The position numbers were made by a program, and so were the translations under genes. From Henriciella algicola (GTDB lineage Bacteria; Pseudomonadota; Alphaproteobacteria; Caulobacterales; Hyphomonadaceae), in NCBI RefSeq assembly GCF_003576245.1, contig NZ_QWGA01000003.1, forward strand, positions 744,001-808,000: DNA of 64,000 nucleotides. The letters run 5' to 3'. This document shows, one piece after another, positions 4,894-36,162 of this stretch. Under the pieces are notes generated by a model that searched no databases, was not told where the DNA came from, and saw nothing but the letters and a program-made list of their open reading frames with translations. How positions within the stretch are numbered: the first letter of the stretch is position 1; the number at the start of each line of letters is the position of its first letter.

Positions 4894-4920
4894 GGTCGCG
4901 CACACTCTGGAGGAATGAAT

Positions 4921-5334
4921 ATGAAAGCTTTCTCGCTCGCCGCTGGCCTTGCAATCGCTCTGGCAGGAACTGCCTGTTCTGAGCAGGCGCCCGCCGAACC
5001 GGAGAACGTGTCGGCGCAGACGGCCGCACCTGCTGCTGTCGAGGCACCAGCCGCGACCTCGTCCAGTTCGCGCTTCAATCTACGGATACCGGGGGGCGAA
5101 CCTGTCGCTGCTCCGCAATCTTCCGGCGGTTTCAATCTTCGCACGCCGGATGCGCCTGCCCCGGCTGAGGATATTCCGATGCCAGCCGGCTCCAGTGCCG
5201 CGCGTCTGAGTGATGTGCCTGAAGTCACTGTTCCGGGCCTCAACAATCCGGCCGCTGACATCGCGACCCGCAGCCGGAGAGAAGCCCCGGAAGTGAATAC
5301 TGAGGATGATGACGACGTCATCCGTCTCGACTAG
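4921..5334 (+). CDS. Small hypothetical lipoprotein with duplicated FNLR-P motif
   Basis: A 137-residue protein not recognised as a known family. The signal peptide ends in LAGTAC (Cys19), indicating outer-membrane lipidation. The mature part is Ala/Pro/Ser-rich and probably disordered; it contains two copies of SS-x-x-FNLR(I/T)P about 25 residues apart and ends in a very acidic tail (EDDDDVIRLD). ATG 4921 was chosen over ATG 4915 because GGAGG at 4909-4913 is correctly spaced only for the former. It sits between gshB and comM. Confidence 0.75.
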   Translation: MKAFSLAAGLAIALAGTACSEQAPAEPENVSAQTAAPAAVEAPAATSSSSRFNLRIPGGEPVAAPQSSGGFNLRTPDAPAPAEDIPMPAGSSAARLSDVPEVTVPGLNNPAADIATRSRREAPEVNTEDDDDVIRLD

Positions 5335-5420: not shown

Positions 5421-6971
5421 ATGGTCTGCCGCGTCACGACTTTTGCCTTTGAGGGTATCGAGGCCAAGCCTGTCGACGTTCAGGTGCAGATCAGTTCAGG
5501 CAATCCGTTCTTCACCATAGTCGGCCTGCCAGACAAGGCCGTTGGCGAGAGCAAGGAGCGCGTGCGCGCCGCCTTCTCCGCCATAGGTCTCGCCACGCCG
5601 CCCAAGCGGATCACCGTCAACCTTGCGCCCGCTGACCTTCCCAAGGAAGGCAGCCATTATGACCTTGCAATCGCGCTCGCCATGCTGGCGGCAATGGGCG
5701 TTATCGCGCCTGATGCACTGGACGGGCATGCCGCGATTGGAGAGCTGTCACTCGACGGCGCGCTGGGTCCGACGCTGGGGGTCCTTCCAGCAGCCATGGC
5801 TGCGCAGGCCATGGATCTGCGCCTCATCTGCCCCGAAGTTTGCGGCCCGGAAGCTGCCTGGGCTGGCGAGGGGACGCTCGCCGTGCCGAGCCTCATTGCC
5901 ATGATCAATCATTTCGCAGGCCGGGTCAGCCTGCCTGCGCCTGTCGCCGGAGAACTCGCGCCGCCGCAGGCCGTGCCGAACTTAGCTGACGTGAAAGGGC
6001 AGGACGGCGCCAAGCGCGTGCTGGAGATTGCCGCTGCCGGTGGACATAACTTGCTTTTCTGCGGGCCGCCCGGCTCAGGCAAATCGATGCTGGCCCAGCG
6101 GCTGCCAGGCCTGCTGCCACCTCTTTCCGCGACCGAGCTTCTTGAGGTTTCGCAAATTCAATCAGTTGCCGGAATGCTGGAGCGCGGCAAGCTTTCGCGC
6201 CAGCGCCCATTCCGCGCGCCGCACCATTCGGCCTCCATGGCGGCCCTTGTTGGCGGCGGTATCAAGGCAAGGCCGGGCGAGGTCTCTCTCGCCCATCACG
6301 GCGTCCTTTTCCTTGATGAGCTACCGGAGTTTCCGGCGCAGGTGCTCGATAGCCTGCGCCAGCCGCTGGAAGACGGCGCTGTCGTGATCTCGCGCGCCAA
6401 CCGCCATGTGAAATACCCGGCCCGCTTCCAGCTTGTTGCGGCCATGAACCCCTGCCGCTGCGGCGGTGGGCCGGGTGACGGCGCCTGCAGGCGCGGACCT
6501 GCCTGCGCGCGCCAGTACCAGTCCCGCATCTCCGGGCCTTTCTTTGACCGGATCGACCTGTTCTTCGACACCCCGCCCGTCACCGCGATCGACCTTACCC
6601 TGCCTGCCCCGACCGAAGGCACGGCTGAAGCCTCTGCACGGGTACAGCAGGCACGTGACATCCAGACCGACCGGTTCGAACAATTCGGCGCGGGCGATGG
6701 TCGCCGCCCCATTAATGCAGACGCCCCGACCCACAGCCTGACGGATATCGCCTCACCGGATGAGTCGGCCAACGCCCTCCTTGCGGATGCGGCCGCAAAG
6801 CTCGCCCTGTCGGCGCGGGCCTATCACCGGGTCCTGAAAGTCGCGCGCACGATTGCAGACCTTGATGGCGCGGGCGGGGTGCGGCGCGCCCATGTCGCCG
6901 AAGCGCTGTCCTATCGCCGCCGTCCGCCCGAGGGCGAGACGCTCAGCACTGCCCGCTCGCTCGCCCATTAA
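5421..6971 (+). CDS. comM: YifB/ComM family Mg-chelatase-like AAA+ ATPase
   Basis: A 516-residue protein of the ComM family, a hexameric helicase that promotes branch migration during natural transformation in Vibrio/Haemophilus. Order: N-terminal Lon-like chelatase subdomain I, Walker A GPPGSGKS (about 215-222), Walker B VLFLDELPEF, a Cys-rich segment (NPCRCGG...CRRGPACAR), then a C-terminal chelatase domain ending YRRRPP. All ATPase elements look intact. Whether this organism is naturally competent cannot be told from the window. Confidence 0.94.
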   Translation: MVCRVTTFAFEGIEAKPVDVQVQISSGNPFFTIVGLPDKAVGESKERVRAAFSAIGLATPPKRITVNLAPADLPKEGSHYDLAIALAMLAAMGVIAPDALDGHAAIGELSLDGALGPTLGVLPAAMAAQAMDLRLICPEVCGPEAAWAGEGTLAVPSLIAMINHFAGRVSLPAPVAGELAPPQAVPNLADVKGQDGAKRVLEIAAAGGHNLLFCGPPGSGKSMLAQRLPGLLPPLSATELLEVSQIQSVAGMLERGKLSRQRPFRAPHHSASMAALVGGGIKARPGEVSLAHHGVLFLDELPEFPAQVLDSLRQPLEDGAVVISRANRHVKYPARFQLVAAMNPCRCGGGPGDGACRRGPACARQYQSRISGPFFDRIDLFFDTPPVTAIDLTLPAPTEGTAEASARVQQARDIQTDRFEQFGAGDGRRPINADAPTHSLTDIASPDESANALLADAAAKLALSARAYHRVLKVARTIADLDGAGGVRRAHVAEALSYRRRPPEGETLSTARSLAH

Positions 6972-7023: not shown

Positions 7024-8496
7024 ATGACAGAGAAGAATGACGCTTCGTCGGCCGAGCAGGCCTTTCTGGCAACGACCAGCCACGAAATCCGCACACCCCT
7101 GAACGGCATTCTCGGCACGGTCTCGCTGCTTCTGGAAACTGAGCTCGACCCGGCCCAGAAAGAATATGCCGAAGCGATCCGCGCGTCTGGCTCGCGTCTT
7201 CTCGATCTGCTTAACAACATTCTCGACTATGCCCGCCTCGATACGGCCGCGCCGGAGCTTGAGCCAGAAGTCTTTTGCGTGCGCGACCTTGCCCGCGAAG
7301 TCACAGAGCTTCTGTCCCCGCGAGCCCATGCAGCAGGCCTCGACCTTGGCGTGCTCTGCCGTCCCGGCGTGCCCGCCAGCATGAAGGCCGATGCAGGCAA
7401 GCTCCGCCAGATCCTGTTCAACCTCGTCGGCAATGCGCTCAAATTTACTGAAAGCGGCGGTGTCCTGGTCGACATGGATTTTCAGCACGGCAAGCTCATC
7501 TTCAATGTCCGCGACACAGGCCCGGGCATTGCTGCCGCAGACCAGACCCGCCTTTTCGACGCCTTCCGGCAGACCTCTCCCGATGATGCCCGCAAGGATG
7601 GCGGCGTCGGGCTTGGCCTCGCCATCGTGAAACGCCTCAGTGAGGCGATGGGCGGCTCGATCACGCTGCAAAGTGCGCCGGGCGACGGCACGTGCTTTCG
7701 CGCAGAAGCGCCCGCTGAGATCATCGCCGACGCAGAGACGATCCGCTCCGACAAGCTGTCTGGTATCCACGTCGCCTTTGCCGGCCTTCCGACTTCGACG
7801 TCACTGTCGGCCTGGGGGGCGCTGGAAGAAAGCGGCGCGCGCGTCTCAATTGTCCATTCGGCAGAAGAGGCGCGCCGCGCGCGTCCCACACTGGTCATCG
7901 CCGCCGCAGAGCTTCCCGAACGCAGCCTGAAGGCGTTAACCGGAATTGCCCCTGTGCTTGTTGTGGTACGCCCCGCAGATCGCGGTCTGATCAGCCGCTT
8001 TCACAAGATGGGCGTCACCGGCTGGCTCGTGCGTCCGCTTCGCGGCTCCTCTCTCGTCGAGCGTGTCTTGTTGGTCTCCCAAGGCGGCAAAGGCGGTGAA
8101 GAAGAACCCGCCGCATCCGCGGGCGGCCGCGTCCTCATCGCAGACGATAATCCGGTGAATGCGCTGATTGCACGGCGTGCCTTGGAATCGGCCGGATTCA
8201 GCGTCACGGTTGCCTCAACCGGGCGCGAGGCCGTCGATGTAGCGAAGACGATTTCGCCCGCCCTGGTGTTTATGGATTTGCGTATGCCGATCATGGACGG
8301 CTATGAAGCAATGAAAGCCCTTAGAGAGGCCGGACAGACCATGCCGATCATTGCGATCTCTGCAGAAATCAACCCTGAAATCGAGCGCCGGGCGCGCAAA
8401 TCCGGCGCCGATGGCGTCGCCGCCAAACCGCTCGATGCTGAAGCGCTCCGCCGTCTCGCCACTGACTGGACCGCACGCCGGCAAGGAGCCGCATGA
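7024..8496 (+). CDS. Hybrid histidine kinase without sensor domain (HisKA-HATPase-pseudoreceiver-REC)
   Basis: A 490-residue cytoplasmic kinase. The phosphoacceptor helix begins almost at once (SHEIRTPLNG, His20), so there is no N-terminal sensor or membrane segment. The ATPase domain has N box, DTGPGI and GVGLGLAIV. Residues about 250-350 form a receiver-like fold lacking the usual acidic pocket, followed by a true receiver (IADDNP; phosphoacceptor Asp418 in MDLRMPIMDGYEAM). ATG 7024 is preferred; an in-frame TTG at 7003 is possible. The stop overlaps the next permease gene (ATGA), suggesting co-expression. The partner and input are unknown. Confidence 0.9.
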   Translation: MTEKNDASSAEQAFLATTSHEIRTPLNGILGTVSLLLETELDPAQKEYAEAIRASGSRLLDLLNNILDYARLDTAAPELEPEVFCVRDLAREVTELLSPRAHAAGLDLGVLCRPGVPASMKADAGKLRQILFNLVGNALKFTESGGVLVDMDFQHGKLIFNVRDTGPGIAAADQTRLFDAFRQTSPDDARKDGGVGLGLAIVKRLSEAMGGSITLQSAPGDGTCFRAEAPAEIIADAETIRSDKLSGIHVAFAGLPTSTSLSAWGALEESGARVSIVHSAEEARRARPTLVIAAAELPERSLKALTGIAPVLVVVRPADRGLISRFHKMGVTGWLVRPLRGSSLVERVLLVSQGGKGGEEEPAASAGGRVLIADDNPVNALIARRALESAGFSVTVASTGREAVDVAKTISPALVFMDLRMPIMDGYEAMKALREAGQTMPIIAISAEINPEIERRARKSGADGVAAKPLDAEALRRLATDWTARRQGAA

Positions 8497-10313
8497 GCAA
8501 CACCGCCCTACCGACGGCGGGCAACCGCACTGTCGGCGAAACGCTGAAGCAGTTCGCCCAGCCGAAGATGGCGATGATGCTGGTGCTCGGCTTCACCGCC
8601 GGCCTGCCATTCCTTCTCTATTTTTCGACGCTCTCGGTCTGGCTGAAAGAGAGCGGCATTGAAGAAGCCCTGATCGGTTTCTTCTCCTGGTTTGGCCTCG
8701 CCTATTCCTTCAAGTTTGTGTGGGCGCCGCTCGTCGACCGGTTCGACCCGCCCGGCCTTGCCAAATTGTTCGGTCGCCGCCGCGCCTGGATCTTTGTCGC
8801 GCAGATCGGCATCGCGCTCTCCATGGTCGGCCTCGGCTTTTCCAATCCGACGTCGAGCCTCGCTGTCACCGCGCTCTTCTCATTCCTGATCGCTTTCAGC
8901 TCCGCGACGCAGGACATCGGCATCGACGCATGGCGGATCGAAGCTGCCGCCAATGATGACGAACAGGCGACCCTCGCCGCCGCCTACCAGTATGGCTACA
9001 AGGTTGGCATGGTGATCTCGGGCGGCGTGGCGCTTGTGATCGCAGGCGTCGCCAGCTTCCCCGTCGCCTATTGGGTCATGGCCGCCACGATGGGCCTAGC
9101 CGCCTTCGTGTTCGCGATCTGGGACCGGCGCTATGGAATCCATGCCGCCGCTGCCGCGGGCCTGATCCTTCTAACAGTCGGTTTTGCCTCCGCCTTCGGC
9201 TCTTTCGCTGGCGTTCTGGAAGACGGCACGATCGGCCACACGCTGATGGTCGGCATTTCATGGCTCTGCTACCTCGTTGCTGCCGCTGCCGCTGTTGGCT
9301 TTGTCATTGCTGCGACGCTCGCCCTGAAAAGCCCGCCGGACGGTGTGGAGTTTTCCGCCAGCAGCCTGTTTCTCGGTATTGGTTTTGCCGTTGGCGCTTT
9401 CCTCGTGGTGGCCGTTATCGCTGCCCTGCTCGGTGCGGGCCTGCCAGCGGCATTCGGCGCGCTTGGCATTGAGCTGGAACGCAGCACAGTCGCGCAAGCC
9501 GCCATCTATATCGCAGCGGCGCCGATCATCGCATGCGCCATCGCCATCCCCTTCATTCGCCGCCTGAAGCCGGACGCCCCGCAGCTGCGCAACCCGACCA
9601 TGGCGCCCTTTCTTGATTTCTTCTGGCGTCATGGCTGGATCGCCCTGCTGATCCTGCTTTTCGTATCCTCCTACAGGCTCAGCGACATCGTCATGGGCAT
9701 CATGGCAAAGCCCGCCTACACCCATATGGGCTATGACGCTGAAGCCATCGGCATCGTCAGCGGTACCTATGGCCCGTGGATCATCTTTGTCGGTGTCGCA
9801 ATGGCGGGCTTTTCAGCGGTGAAGTTCGGGCTTCGCACCTCGCTCATCATCGGCGCGATCGTTTCGGTGCTCGGCAATCTCACCTTTGCGTGGCTGGTCA
9901 ACCAGCCCTCCAGCAGTCTTGTCCCGCTGTTCATCGCGGTGACAGCGGACAATATTGCGGGCGGCTATGCCGGCACCGTGTTCGTGGCCTTCATGTCGAC
10001 CATGGTCGCCAAATCCTTTGCGGGGACGCAGTACGCCATTTTCAGCTCGGTCTACTCGCTCGGGCCCAAACTGGTGGCGGGCACGTCCGGCGTGATGGTG
10101 CAGACCTTCAGCGGCGGCGTCGATGCGGCAGCGACCGTCGAGGGCTATTCGAAGTTCTTCCTGTTTGCCGCCGTGCTCGGCGTGCCAGCGATCCTGCTCT
10201 CCTGGTTTGCGCACAAGATGAAGCCAGACCGCGAAGCCGTCCTGCAGAATGCGCCGCCTCCAGGCGTGGATACGGGCACAGGCAGCTCATCGGACGCCGC
10301 CGAACGCGCCTGA
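8493..10313 (+). CDS. AmpG-like MFS permease
   Basis: A 606-residue polytopic membrane protein. The N-terminal segment (GLPFLLYFSTLSVWLKE, then SFKFVWAPLVDR) and the later block (FLDFFWRHGWIALLILLFVSSYRLSD) are typical of AmpG muropeptide permeases, which import anhydro-muropeptides for cell-wall recycling. It is longer than many AmpG proteins: an extra hydrophobic stretch of several predicted membrane segments lies around residues 210-350 between the halves. The start overlaps the upstream kinase stop by 4 nt. The exact substrate is inferred from family resemblance. Confidence 0.82.
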   Translation: MSNTALPTAGNRTVGETLKQFAQPKMAMMLVLGFTAGLPFLLYFSTLSVWLKESGIEEALIGFFSWFGLAYSFKFVWAPLVDRFDPPGLAKLFGRRRAWIFVAQIGIALSMVGLGFSNPTSSLAVTALFSFLIAFSSATQDIGIDAWRIEAAANDDEQATLAAAYQYGYKVGMVISGGVALVIAGVASFPVAYWVMAATMGLAAFVFAIWDRRYGIHAAAAAGLILLTVGFASAFGSFAGVLEDGTIGHTLMVGISWLCYLVAAAAAVGFVIAATLALKSPPDGVEFSASSLFLGIGFAVGAFLVVAVIAALLGAGLPAAFGALGIELERSTVAQAAIYIAAAPIIACAIAIPFIRRLKPDAPQLRNPTMAPFLDFFWRHGWIALLILLFVSSYRLSDIVMGIMAKPAYTHMGYDAEAIGIVSGTYGPWIIFVGVAMAGFSAVKFGLRTSLIIGAIVSVLGNLTFAWLVNQPSSSLVPLFIAVTADNIAGGYAGTVFVAFMSTMVAKSFAGTQYAIFSSVYSLGPKLVAGTSGVMVQTFSGGVDAAATVEGYSKFFLFAAVLGVPAILLSWFAHKMKPDREAVLQNAPPPGVDTGTGSSSDAAERA

Positions 10314-28540: not shown

Positions 28541-30988
<2,448 letters not shown>

Positions 30989-30991
30989 GCA

Positions 30992-31906
30992 ATGTCCACT
31001 TCGCTGGTCAAAGACATTCAAAAGGATGCAATTAAGGCGGACTCTGACCTCGTCGCACTTCTGCGTAAATGCAAGGTGGTAGCCGCCAATCTAGGCTCAA
31101 ATGAAGCCTTGAAGTGGATTAACAATGAACTGAATGGCTATACGTCCGTTCCAGAGGAAGAAATCCCGGAATACCGCGAGACGCAGGGAAAGTGGCAATT
31201 TTGGAACCCATATAACGGTTGGTGCCCGATAATCTTTCCAGAAGAATTGGCGAAAGTTGCGTGCGAAGCGCGTTTACCCGAGTCAATTTCAACTATCTGG
31301 GCCTTAAGCAAAAAGGACCTTACTTCTGCGCTTACGCTCAGTTGCGGGCCGTCGAAGGAAGAAGCGATTCGACGCTTGCTTCGCGCATCAGGTGACTTTT
31401 TTGAAACAGAGCTCCGGTTCGTAATTCCCACCAACTTGCCGACCAAGATTGTTGAAGCCGTCAAGAACTTGGTTCTTGATTGGTCCTTGGAGCTTTCCAC
31501 CGAGGGAGTCATAGATGAAGACAGCGACTTCACCGAGGACAAGGTCGAAAAGGGCACAAGCATCAGCAATCAATACTTCATTCAAAATGTGGGGATGCTC
31601 GGGAACGTCGATGGTAGCTCCAATGTGGCAAACACCGTTACTGTTACGCAGAAAATAAACCTGAAGAACGTTTCGAACACCCTTGATCAGATTGAATCCG
31701 CCAAAGCCAGTTTGCCGCCGGAACTGATAGCTTCAACCGAAAAGCTTTCAGAGCAAATTCGAGCCGAAATAAAAAAAACTGAACCCGATCAAAGTTTCAT
31801 TTTCGGAGCGCTTCAGTCGCTTAAAAACATCCTTGAAGGCGCGACAGGAAATTTGGCGGCTCAGGGCGCTTCAGCTTTAATTGCGTCATTGTTGCAGGCG
31901 ATATAA
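30992..31906 (+). CDS. AbiTii-domain protein (abortive infection-type phage defence candidate)
   Basis: A 304-residue soluble protein. Its first about 100 residues match the AbiTii pattern: SLVKDIQKDAIKADSDLVALLRK..., then LGSNEALKWINNELNGY, IPEYR and WNPYNGWCPI. AbiTii is one component of the lactococcal AbiT abortive-infection system; its mechanism is poorly known. Residues about 190-225 are Asn/Gly/Val/Ser-rich (NVGMLGNVDGSSN), and the last 75 form amphipathic helices with a small hydrophobic end. The gene is visibly AT-richer with different codon use than gyrB, suggesting transfer. It begins 3 nt after gyrB, behind GAGGTGG inside the gyrB end, so it is probably co-transcribed. No AbiTi-like partner was seen. 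Confidence 0.72.
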   Translation: MSTSLVKDIQKDAIKADSDLVALLRKCKVVAANLGSNEALKWINNELNGYTSVPEEEIPEYRETQGKWQFWNPYNGWCPIIFPEELAKVACEARLPESISTIWALSKKDLTSALTLSCGPSKEEAIRRLLRASGDFFETELRFVIPTNLPTKIVEAVKNLVLDWSLELSTEGVIDEDSDFTEDKVEKGTSISNQYFIQNVGMLGNVDGSSNVANTVTVTQKINLKNVSNTLDQIESAKASLPPELIASTEKLSEQIRAEIKKTEPDQSFIFGALQSLKNILEGATGNLAAQGASALIASLLQAI

Positions 31907-32150
31907 ATCCCATGTGTTAGGCGAGAGGCGGTTGGAAGATACTGTCGAACGCTAATGCTTGGGTGCACTAGGCTGAATGCAGTTCCTGCCATTCAGCCAT
32001 AGCCAGCCTCTGTCAGTCCGTTGCAGGCGGTCAAGGCTACCGGAGCCACGGCGGACCCGCTTGGCCTTGAGGGACTGAACAGATGGGACAGACGCCCCAC
32101 CTTTTATTCGAAACGCCGCCCCTCTCCCGATTGCGGGCTTGGAGGGGTCA

Positions 32151-32175
32151 GTAAAAGGTCCAGTGGACCTTTTAC
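32151..32175. repeat. 25-nt palindrome
   Basis: Arms GTAAAAGGTCCA / TGGACCTTTTAC are perfect 12-bp inverted copies around a single G. It could fold as a cruciform or RNA hairpin. No second copy was found in the window. Confidence 0.85.
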
Positions 32176-32263
32176 CCCGACAAGGTTCAGGGGTGAGGGC
32201 TCCGGCGCCGGAGACGTCCATCGACGTTGCGCCAAGAACTAGCCTTTCGGCCCTCATCCCCGG

Positions 32264-32289
32264 CCCTTCTCCCGAGGCCGGGAGAAGGG
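32264..32289. repeat. GC-rich hairpin upstream of DUF559 gene
   Basis: Perfect arms CCCTTCTCCCG / CGGGAGAAGGG with loop AGGC, ending about 50 nt before the DUF559 start. The composition is that of REP-like intergenic repeats. Confidence 0.75.
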
Positions 32290-32341
32290 GGCGATAGAGG
32301 AACCGCTTTCGAGTCCTCTCAACCGAGGCGATAGTCGCTTG

Positions 32342-32698
32342 ATGAGCGAATACCCATCGACCCGGTGCGCACGGTCGCTTCGTCGACGCGCGAACGCGCC
32401 TGAGCAGAAGGCGTGGGAGACGCTTCGCCAGCTGCGTGCGGAAGGCTATGCGGTCAGGCGTCAGGTCAGCATCGAAGGGCTGACCGTCGATTTCGCGATC
32501 CGGTCCCTGCGGCTGGTGATCGAAATAGACGGTGCGATCCATGACCTCGAAACTATCCGCCAGAACGATACCGAACGCGATGCCAGGCTTCGCTCGGCCG
32601 GTTGGCATGTGATGCGCGTCCCAGCAGAGACTGCGATGAGCGGCGACCATCTTATTGCGGTCGTAAGAGATGAAATCGCCAAACTTCAAAACAGGTGA
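32342..32698 (+). CDS. DUF559 family protein (VSR/restriction-endonuclease-like fold)
   Basis: A 118-residue DUF559 protein. The N-terminus RRRANAPEQKAWETLRQLR is characteristic, then VDFAIRSLRLVIEIDGAIHD supplies the PD-(D/E)xK-like core (Asp, Glu-Ile-Asp-Gly), and RDARLRSAGWHVMRVP is the usual ending. The family resembles very-short-patch repair endonucleases, but no function is established. ATG 32342 is used; a TTG immediately before is possible. It is surrounded by hairpin repeats and lies in the same accessory patch as the AbiTii gene. Confidence 0.88.
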   Translation: MSEYPSTRCARSLRRRANAPEQKAWETLRQLRAEGYAVRRQVSIEGLTVDFAIRSLRLVIEIDGAIHDLETIRQNDTERDARLRSAGWHVMRVPAETAMSGDHLIAVVRDEIAKLQNR

Positions 32699-32945: not shown

Positions 32946-32955
32946 GCCCCCCGGC

Positions 32956-33483
32956 CTATTTCGCGCCGCGCTTCAGAAAGAGCACGTATCCCATCTCCGA
33001 TGCGCTTTTCATGAGCTCTACATTCGCCCAAGCCACCACCTCTGCAAAAGGCCGCTCCTTGAAAGGCCAACGTGTCAGGCCCGAGCTCGTAAGCGCTTCG
33101 TCATCGAGCCCTTCGACCAAAGCCCGCCAGCGGCACGCAAGAGCGCGCACCTCCTCTCGGACGCCGTCGGCAGATCCAGGCCAGAGCACATTCTCTCGCG
33201 CCAGTTGGCCATCTCCAAAACTCTGGTCGAGTACCGTCTGCCACCAGAAAATGAGATGCCAGGTGATCCAGCCGAGACTGGCTGGCCCGATCTCATAGTC
33301 TTCGCGATCCGGCCAGTCGGCGTGCCAGCGACCCGACGCGTCATCACGCCAGACATGCAGGCCCGCTTCGCCTCCCGGACGCCAGAGGCAGTCCTCGGTG
33401 GTGAGGGCGTCAAGGTGAAGTTCGGCAAGCCGCCACGCCATGTCATATTGGCGCAGAAGCACCGCTTTGAGGTCACTGGACAT
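32956..33483 (-). CDS. DinB-like (DinB_2) family protein
   Basis: A 175-residue four-helix DinB-type protein. It has LLRQYDMAWRLAELHLDALT at the N-terminus, SLGWITWHLIFWWQTVLDQSFG in the middle and a C-terminal AWANVELMKSASEMGYVLFL helix; histidines in the first two segments fit the metal-binding pattern of the family. DinB-like enzymes are often thiol transferases or damage-induced proteins of unknown role. The start is either 33483 or 33495, four codons apart; neither has a clear ribosome site. It is an isolated gene next to the repeat-rich patch. Confidence 0.75.
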   Translation of the reverse strand: MSSDLKAVLLRQYDMAWRLAELHLDALTTEDCLWRPGGEAGLHVWRDDASGRWHADWPDREDYEIGPASLGWITWHLIFWWQTVLDQSFGDGQLARENVLWPGSADGVREEVRALACRWRALVEGLDDEALTSSGLTRWPFKERPFAEVVAWANVELMKSASEMGYVLFLKRGAK

Positions 33484-33674
33484 GGCCACCACCATAGCGG
33501 CTCAACGACCGGGTGGGACGAAAAACCTGCGAAAATCTTGAACCGCCAAAAAACACCGCCCATACACCGCCAGTGCACCGTCACTGCACCGTCCAGACGC
33601 TCACGTTTCCCCCACACCATCCGACCGGAAAATCGAGATTGACCCGCCGGGGCTTCCACGCGAGTTTCCGCCTC

Positions 33675-35737: not shown

Positions 35738-36162
35738 GGAGGTCTCCTTTCCTTGTTTGCGCGGAGGAGCCAATCAGATCGAAAGCGACGGTTCAACCCG
35801 TAGGACGCGGATGTGAGCGCTTTGTAATTTAATGGTTTTTCATGAAGGCACTGTCATTTATGACACGCCGACCGCGCGACAGCTGGCGAACGCGCATTGC
35901 CCCTGTTCAAACCCCAGCCGGCGCATTATCTCATGGGATAGCACAAGGGCTGCGGCGTTCGAGGAAGCCAGCTGTCCGCCGACCTTACGTTCCGTCAAGG
36001 GAGCTGGCGCTGGGACTGGCCGTGGCCTATCCTAACCGGCACCCACCTAGTTACTAGGTCGACGGGACACGAGCGCTAAGACGGCGCATGTGGTCCTTGT
36101 GCATTCCTTTTCGCGCGCATCCAGCTTGACAATCAGGCCGCTCCAGCCTGACAGGGCAGGCC
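35738..36162. other. Gene-free region before the DMT transporter
   Basis: About 425 nt. A 71-codon frame (35842-36057) has no ribosome site and no recognisable similarity. A small palindrome ACCTAG-TTA-CTAGGT lies at 36045-36059. Otherwise nothing supported; promoters for the flanking divergent genes are expected here. Confidence 0.5.

Follow-up and report, generated by a model that had tools for sequence, protein, structure and literature searches.

A putative single-gene AbiTii-family abortive-infection factor flush behind gyrB in Henriciella algicola

Why should a low-GC gene begin directly behind the stop codon of an essential core gene? The question is raised by a stretch of 64,000 nucleotides of the Henriciella algicola genome (contig NZ_QWGA01000003.1, positions 744,001 to 808,000), hereafter called the window. 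Its gyrB gene (28565..30988, plus strand, 807 aa; Pfam DNA_gyraseB, DNA_gyraseB_C, Toprim and HATPase_c) serves as host for docked cargo and ends with a TAG codon at 30986–30988. The ATG of a 304-aa ORF (30992..31906, plus strand), distinguished by its Pfam and PADLOC matches and its outlying codon usage, lies 3 nt downstream, where the original prediction had placed it. The gene had been described as fused behind gyrB. The adjacent position is correct, but gyrB and the newcomer are two separate ORFs. We consider it probable, although well short of certain, that this gene was acquired horizontally, that it constitutes by itself an AbiTii-family abortive-infection factor, and that it resides in a replacement-type hotspot behind gyrB, is expressed from the gyrB transcript and has spread by recombination.

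The family assignment is clear. An N-terminal signature of AbiTii had been read from the sequence, and the HMM search proposed to examine it gave a significant result. Pfam AbiTii (PF18864) matches residues 4–187 (31001..31552, plus strand) with an E-value of 5.5e-36 and 125 bits, far above the curated cut-off of 27.6 that defines family membership, and the match spans profile positions 1–183 of 189. The PADLOC AbiTii model agrees (1.2e-38). NCBIfam gave no match to this protein, and PHROGs gave only weak ones (best 0.011).

The original prediction also noted that no second AbiT protein was visible, a statement that proved to be incomplete. Lactococcal AbiT consists of two genes, abiTi and abiTii, in the available text of PMC3985639, and no separate AbiTi gene is present among the ORFs in the gyrB slot. 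The helical C-terminal region of the window protein (residues 207–300; 31610..31891, plus strand) is itself AbiTi-like (PADLOC AbiTi, 2.2e-07). Thus, rather than two separate genes in one operon, a single chromosomal ORF docked on gyrB contains an AbiTii domain and an AbiTi-like region, the counterparts of the two Lactococcus lactis components, which thus appear to be joined in one polypeptide. The C-terminal AbiTi match is found in 6 of the 11 AbiTii proteins that were selected for comparison. PADLOC models for PDC-M14B also match this region of the window protein, so the AbiTi-like domain is not exclusive to AbiTi.

The aligned set of 11 comprises the window protein, five genome-encoded and four plasmid-encoded proteins, and a protein of an Omnitrophota contig. 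Of 13 homologue loci, ten entered the alignment; the three omitted are G506 (198 aa), G395 (237 aa) and G010, which gave no match (here and below, G numbers designate genomes or homologue sources and L numbers designate loci). The AbiTii model matches 11/11 of these proteins, AbiTi 6/11 and a PDC-M14B model 7/11, C-terminal counts that hold for chosen, mostly full-length proteins, since shorter homologues were omitted. Residues W42, E46, G49, Y50, P59, Y61 and R62 are among those invariant in all 11. A highly conserved glutamate is ascribed to the AbiTii domain in the accessible portion of PMC3710099, where its position is unstated. Structure prediction was informative only for the C-terminal helices: AlphaFold2, run on the window protein and one relative, gave a mean pLDDT of 52.9, with values of 75–89 in blocks of residues 221–300. 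Foldseek searches of the PDB with the predicted structure returned nothing at an E-value of 0.001 or better, and sequence searches found no solved relative (best E 0.46).

Several AbiTii proteins bear the AbiTi-like tail, and therefore the lactococcal pair looks like a split form of the joined architecture, although the direction of this change is inferred. According to the text available for PMC3985639, lactococcal AbiTi and AbiTii have no toxic effect on E. coli, while the C. catus GD7 AbiTi does have one, which its AbiTii fails to neutralize. In some homologues, of the c2405 and Ymh families, AbiTii forms the N terminus ahead of a HEPN domain, as described in the portion of PMC3710099 at hand. 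As in the window protein, AbiTii there precedes a putative effector; unlike those fusions, the window protein has no Pfam match to HEPN and ends in an AbiTi-like region. Taken together, the toxicity results and the HEPN fusions, as far as these two sources describe them, favor the idea that AbiTii is a control or sensing part placed ahead of exchangeable harmful parts. For the window protein, the N-terminal domain would then probably sense or control, and the helical C-terminal domain would probably be the harmful part that is released upon infection.

Relatives of this protein are found on plasmids (108 records, 4 of which were used in the alignment), and a single-protein pattern scan recovered one relative in genome_contigs. 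No relatives appeared in viral_contigs in five scans with five single proteins, and none in a search of phage records. Phages may nevertheless carry relatives, because single-protein pattern scans catch only close ones.

The composition of the gene is foreign. As had been observed at the outset, it is AT-richer than its surroundings, with a GC content of 0.48 versus 0.61 for the window. Its codon-usage score of −0.203 is the lowest of 27 selected long ORFs in the window, the next being +0.103. Within the genus, 1 of 29 genomes has a match to the protein, its own genome holds a single match, and PF18864 is present in 4/105 genomes of the family and in 9/385 sampled genomes of the class (8 over the cut-off). 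A core gene with native codon use, the case in which the original prediction was to be abandoned, is therefore not what was found.

The boundaries of the foreign DNA were defined by blastn comparison with the syntenic regions of the four nearest relatives (G016, G005, G002 and G011). A segment with a GC content of 0.50 (30989..32183) is absent from all four, and on the left it starts with the base that immediately follows the gyrB stop. Three stretches of at least 150 nt in the 64-kb window are missing from all four relatives, although the far end was compared with two relatives only because G002 and G011 have no coverage beyond about 50 kb. The segment behind gyrB is the only one of low GC; the second (32946..33542) has a native GC of 0.62, and the third is a 164-nt piece. 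Synteny with all four relatives is restored at about 33543. Other ORFs lie flush behind gyrB in G016 (264 aa) and G011 (251 aa), and no sizable flush ORF exists there in G005 or G002.

Several other features of the window were noted in passing. The second absent segment, 32946–33542, holds a 179-aa minus-strand ORF that is DinB-like by eye. A 119-aa DUF559/MTES_1575 endonuclease-like ORF (32339–32698) is located in DNA that has counterparts behind gyrB in G016 and G002. A 606-aa ORF of native GC (8493–10313), which overlaps the stop of the preceding ORF by 4 nt, is absent from three of the four relatives and is possibly a docked gene that has since been ameliorated. A match to 6S RNA (35944–36100) is barely above the Rfam gathering score (50.7 versus 46.4).

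Is the site behind gyrB used by this gene alone? A survey of gyrB 3′ neighbors, suggested as a check of the original prediction, revealed alternating cargo. We inspected 85 gyrB 3′ ends, 29 from the genus and 56 from elsewhere in the family, where 58 genomes had matched; G068 and G071 were set aside because of contig edges, and 20/105 family genomes fall outside the gyrB examination. An insert was defined as an ORF of at least 150 aa whose start or stop lies −20 to +60 of the gyrB stop and whose GC is at least 0.07 below that of the gyrB tail. This rule excludes similar-looking ORFs in G044, G078 and G089 (co-directed) and G076 (opposite). Inserts are carried by 22 of the 85 ends, 18 in the direction of gyrB and 4 opposite (two-sided binomial p 0.0043); because the genomes, one per species, are related and the loci are not independent, all p values given here are guides only. 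The 22 cargoes fall into 16 families (blastp at 1e-3). Unrelated cargo thus alternates at one conserved core-gene site, as in a replacement island.

Co-directed cargoes start between −7 and +49 relative to the gyrB stop, and in G016, G038, G064 and G078 (the last outside the rule) the ATG overlaps the stop itself. For cargoes that start no more than 7 nt from the stop, a ribosome site is possible only within gyrB codons. Longer low-GC islands extend beyond the first ORF in the gyrB slots of G004, G010 and G023 (L037, L038 and L042), where ORFs of 634 and 1205 aa, 408 and 1134 aa, and 1309 aa were seen. A gyrB-tail motif, GAGGTGGATG, was considered as a possible mark of the dock. It is associated with co-directed cargo across the 85 loci (p 9e-05). 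Within single genera, the association is seen in g1 (p 0.003) and is absent in g4 (p 0.64), and it may therefore reflect phylogeny. Beyond the family the slot is rarely used: by eye, 2 of 40 gyrB ends in other families of the order carry a clear low-GC insert (40 of 292 matched genomes, families f2, f3 and f4 only), one of them encoding a DUF2971-type protein on the opposite strand.

The ends of other core genes served as controls. Under the same rule, groEL 3′ ends carry 0/29 inserts (29 of 35 matches, one copy per genome). For parE, read from a table rather than by the coded rule, 0/16 ends have low-GC inserts; no first downstream ORF falls under a GC of 0.56 in these 16 genomes, and 14 of them share a homologous gene in the initial 1.1 kb downstream. 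The corresponding figure for gyrB in the same genus is 10/29 (p 0.0008 versus groEL and 0.008 versus parE).

A second occupied site was found behind a gene that we take from its sequence to be thiC; the name of the cobT-like gene mentioned below was likewise taken from its sequence. In the genus (L254–L281), 7/28 thiC 3′ ends carry inserts, 6 co-directed and 1 opposite, with tail GC computed over 300 nt versus 420 for gyrB. Excluded were G017 and G005, in which the GC difference is too small, and G025, G004 and G001, in which the start lies beyond +60; only 97 nt are present downstream of thiC in G014. When starts up to +100 are allowed, 10/28 ends are occupied, 9 by co-directed ORFs. Pooled over gyrB and thiC, 24/29 inserts are co-directed (p 0.0005). 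The cargo behind thiC includes Shedu SduA in G010 (1.4e-110), AIPR/AbiU in G026 (4e-65) and an opposite-strand DUF2971-like protein in G006 (PDC-S31, 5.4e-10), and an FRG protein in G025 (PDC-S15, 5e-53) starts at +81, outside the rule. PADLOC matches at 1e-5 or better were obtained for 5 of 10 tested proteins at this site. Some cargo is common to both sites: the protein behind gyrB in G010 is similar to that behind thiC in G020 (3e-11), and proteins of the DUF2971 type occur behind gyrB (G035 and, on the opposite strand, G074), behind thiC and once 140 nt behind the cobT-like gene. The same cargo pool would thus seem to occupy further docks.

Several recognized defense families occur behind gyrB. 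In addition to AbiTii, the cargo includes AbiJ_NTD4/PDC-S32 in G001 (PADLOC 1.1e-58), a TIR-type effector in G003 (PADLOC 1.2e-09), Trypsin_2/PDC-S45 on the opposite strand in G024 (1.8e-73) and, also on the opposite strand in G040, a Ymh HEPN protein with a PDC-M34A-like partner (Pfam 2.9e-24; PADLOC 4.3e-13 and 1.5e-08). These make up the 5/19 tested gyrB loci with PADLOC matches at 1e-5 or better. Among native ORFs of the window, 1/10 also matched at 1e-5 (an ATPase-domain protein), so the defense label rests on individual matches and not on a proven excess. A ClpX-zinc-finger cargo in G075 was considered as a further carrier of the AbiTi-like C terminus and was rejected, because the match is not significant (E 1.9).

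Four other cargo families, of the G055, G056, G038/G064 and G044/G089 types, recur behind gyrB and lack significant matches in Pfam and PADLOC. Among 105 genomes, 5 copies of the G055-type membrane protein were counted; 4 lie behind gyrB, where the three copies other than the query are 31–39% identical to it. The G056-type membrane protein has 4 copies in the same genomes, 3 behind gyrB. Together, 7/9 copies of these two families reside in the gyrB slot, and the presence of such divergent copies at the same place in different genera suggests either repeated arrival or a long-lived, slot-bound lineage. G038 and G064 belong to one genus and their cargoes share 79% identity, so simple inheritance may account for this pair. 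Two individual loci deserve mention. In G078 (L117/L126) a G055-type cargo lies behind gyrB, and an AbiTii gene is located elsewhere, 97 nt behind a gene that is glyoxalase-like by eye and in the same direction. In G001 (L045) an ORF that resembles an IS110-type transposase by eye lies about 1.2–2.1 kb behind gyrB on the opposite strand, beyond the AbiJ-type cargo; it is the sole sign of a mobile element noticed near flush cargo.

These patterns could arise if the end of the transcription unit behind gyrB were merely a permissive landing site that tolerates insertions, with no selection for co-transcription or defense. Such a site would explain the 4 of 22 opposite cargoes, the long islands in some slots, a PADLOC share that shows no demonstrated excess over the small native control, and the fact that thiC is occupied too and that related genes lie behind other genes. 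A tolerant site would not be expected, however, to produce an orientation bias of 18 to 4 (p 0.004), co-directed starts confined to −7 to +49 of the stop, or the groEL result of 0/29. We therefore regard simple permissiveness as unlikely, yet as an explanation that deserves to be taken seriously.

A second possibility is that the window gene belongs to the AbiTii family and has no defense role here, being for example stress related or in decay. In keeping with this, its plasmid homologues, where annotated among the records listed, are called "hypothetical protein." Against decay or a change of role are the intact frame of 304 aa, in which all invariant family positions are kept, and the location of the gene in a swap site beside gyrB. 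This alternative is accordingly judged quite improbable.

We therefore return to the reading in which a defense gene is docked directly after the gyrB stop, at a place where short foreign cassettes, mostly single co-oriented genes, would be exchanged within this bacterial family. How might such a gene be expressed? There is no space for a promoter between gyrB and the AbiTii gene, in line with the original prediction of expression without a promoter of its own, and none was found in 30500–32400, where 0.6 would be expected by chance. These observations weakly support the conclusion that the gene lacks a promoter of its own. A ribosome site inside the gyrB end had also been proposed. GAGGTG (30974..30979, plus strand), found by eye within the last gyrB codons, is a candidate, but it lies 12 nt upstream of the ATG, a long spacing for such a site. 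Expression would occur by read-through of the gyrB transcript, with translation coupled to gyrB termination, in which case a newcomer gene would need no promoter. The 4 of 22 cargoes in the opposite orientation are unable to use the gyrB transcript.

How cassettes move is suggested by several features. For hotspots devoid of mobile elements, homologous recombination in the flanking core genes is the published model in the text accessible for PMC5635113. When gyrB of the 5 closest genomes is compared, the final 240 nt of the stretch show the highest third-position identity (0.92 versus 0.70–0.88); among 14 genomes, these 240 nt rank only third of eight bins. Recombination at gyrB is thus only hinted at. 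Behind thiC in G003 (L284), two partial thiC tails (about 4920–5141 and 6154–6357, reverse strand), with protein-level identities of 59 and 78% to the tail used as query, lie among low-GC genes downstream of the intact gene. They are possible footprints of cassettes that arrived with the tail of the donor gene, although an old local duplication would look alike. Overall, the probable route of the cassettes is homologous recombination, within the conserved end of gyrB and the DNA downstream of it, and not the action of an integrase.

A site-specific integrative element that recognizes the 3′ end of gyrB and leaves lone cargo genes behind would account for left junctions that fall at the stop codon in unrelated cargoes. 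Such elements, when driven by an integrase at a gene end, place a copy of the host-gene tail at the far end. No exact copy of at least 15 nt of the last 40 nt of gyrB exists within up to 4 kb downstream at the 85 loci; three matches of 13–14 nt were found, none at a cargo-bearing locus. At the protein level, no remnants of gyrB tails were detected in 125 loci save one marginal match in G201. Gene-end duplication by an integrase is not supported by these searches. No integrase was noticed by eye among the ORFs listed for the gyrB loci, and the right edges vary among relatives, which together make this explanation very improbable.

A defense gene behind gyrB is not without precedent. In the portion of PMC4615327 at hand, the PabI restriction-modification pair of Helicobacter lies behind gyrB with a gap of less than 10 bp in all but one strain. 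The gyrB site therefore recurs in a distant lineage, and, as in the window, defense genes directly follow gyrB. PabI differs in that it is one long-inherited system of three species for which alternating cargo is not described in the text available, whereas in the family studied here the cargo alternates. This pair is also what could suggest that the cargo guards or modulates GyrB and is kept at gyrB to serve gyrase itself, an idea to which we give almost no credence because related cargo lies behind thiC and the cobT-like gene and the cargo families are mostly unrelated to one another.

Among the matches listed in open-licence PMC, and to the extent that their text was available, Helicobacter PabI is the only instance of a defense gene behind gyrB. 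Other candidates from the literature were discarded: in the accessible text of two phage-satellite papers (PMC13376191 and PMC10803314) gyrB is a qPCR reference, and in that of PMC12829572 AbiT is present in the references only. Defense hotspots as such are on record, as far as the available text of each source extends, in E. coli (PMC10121019) and in Pseudomonas aeruginosa, where cDHS1/2 are described along with "replacement islands" of short unrelated defense cassettes (PMC10250203). These hotspots, and those of PMC5635113, likewise hold alternating unrelated cargo between conserved core genes. The new elements here, compared with these published accounts as far as they are available, are cassettes that consist mostly of one gene, that lie flush with the stop of an essential gene and usually share its orientation, and that have at least one further dock.

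There could be a general mode of stop-codon docking, in which single promoterless defense genes travel as cassettes joined to core-gene tails (those of gyrB, thiC and probably further genes), replace one another by homologous recombination in those tails, and borrow the transcript and terminal codons of the host gene. The cargo would come from a shared and largely uncharacterized pool that moves from dock to dock. We put this generalization forward tentatively, as somewhat less likely than not. An AbiTii protein with an AbiTi-like tail makes the mechanism of AbiT testable in a single gene. Any low-GC orphan gene that directly follows the stop of gyrB or thiC becomes a candidate for anti-phage function, and the dock offers a cheap search route for new genes of this kind. 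If read-through from gyrB is confirmed, promoterless single-gene defenses would be expressible at once upon arrival, which would explain why defense genes may stand singly outside islands.
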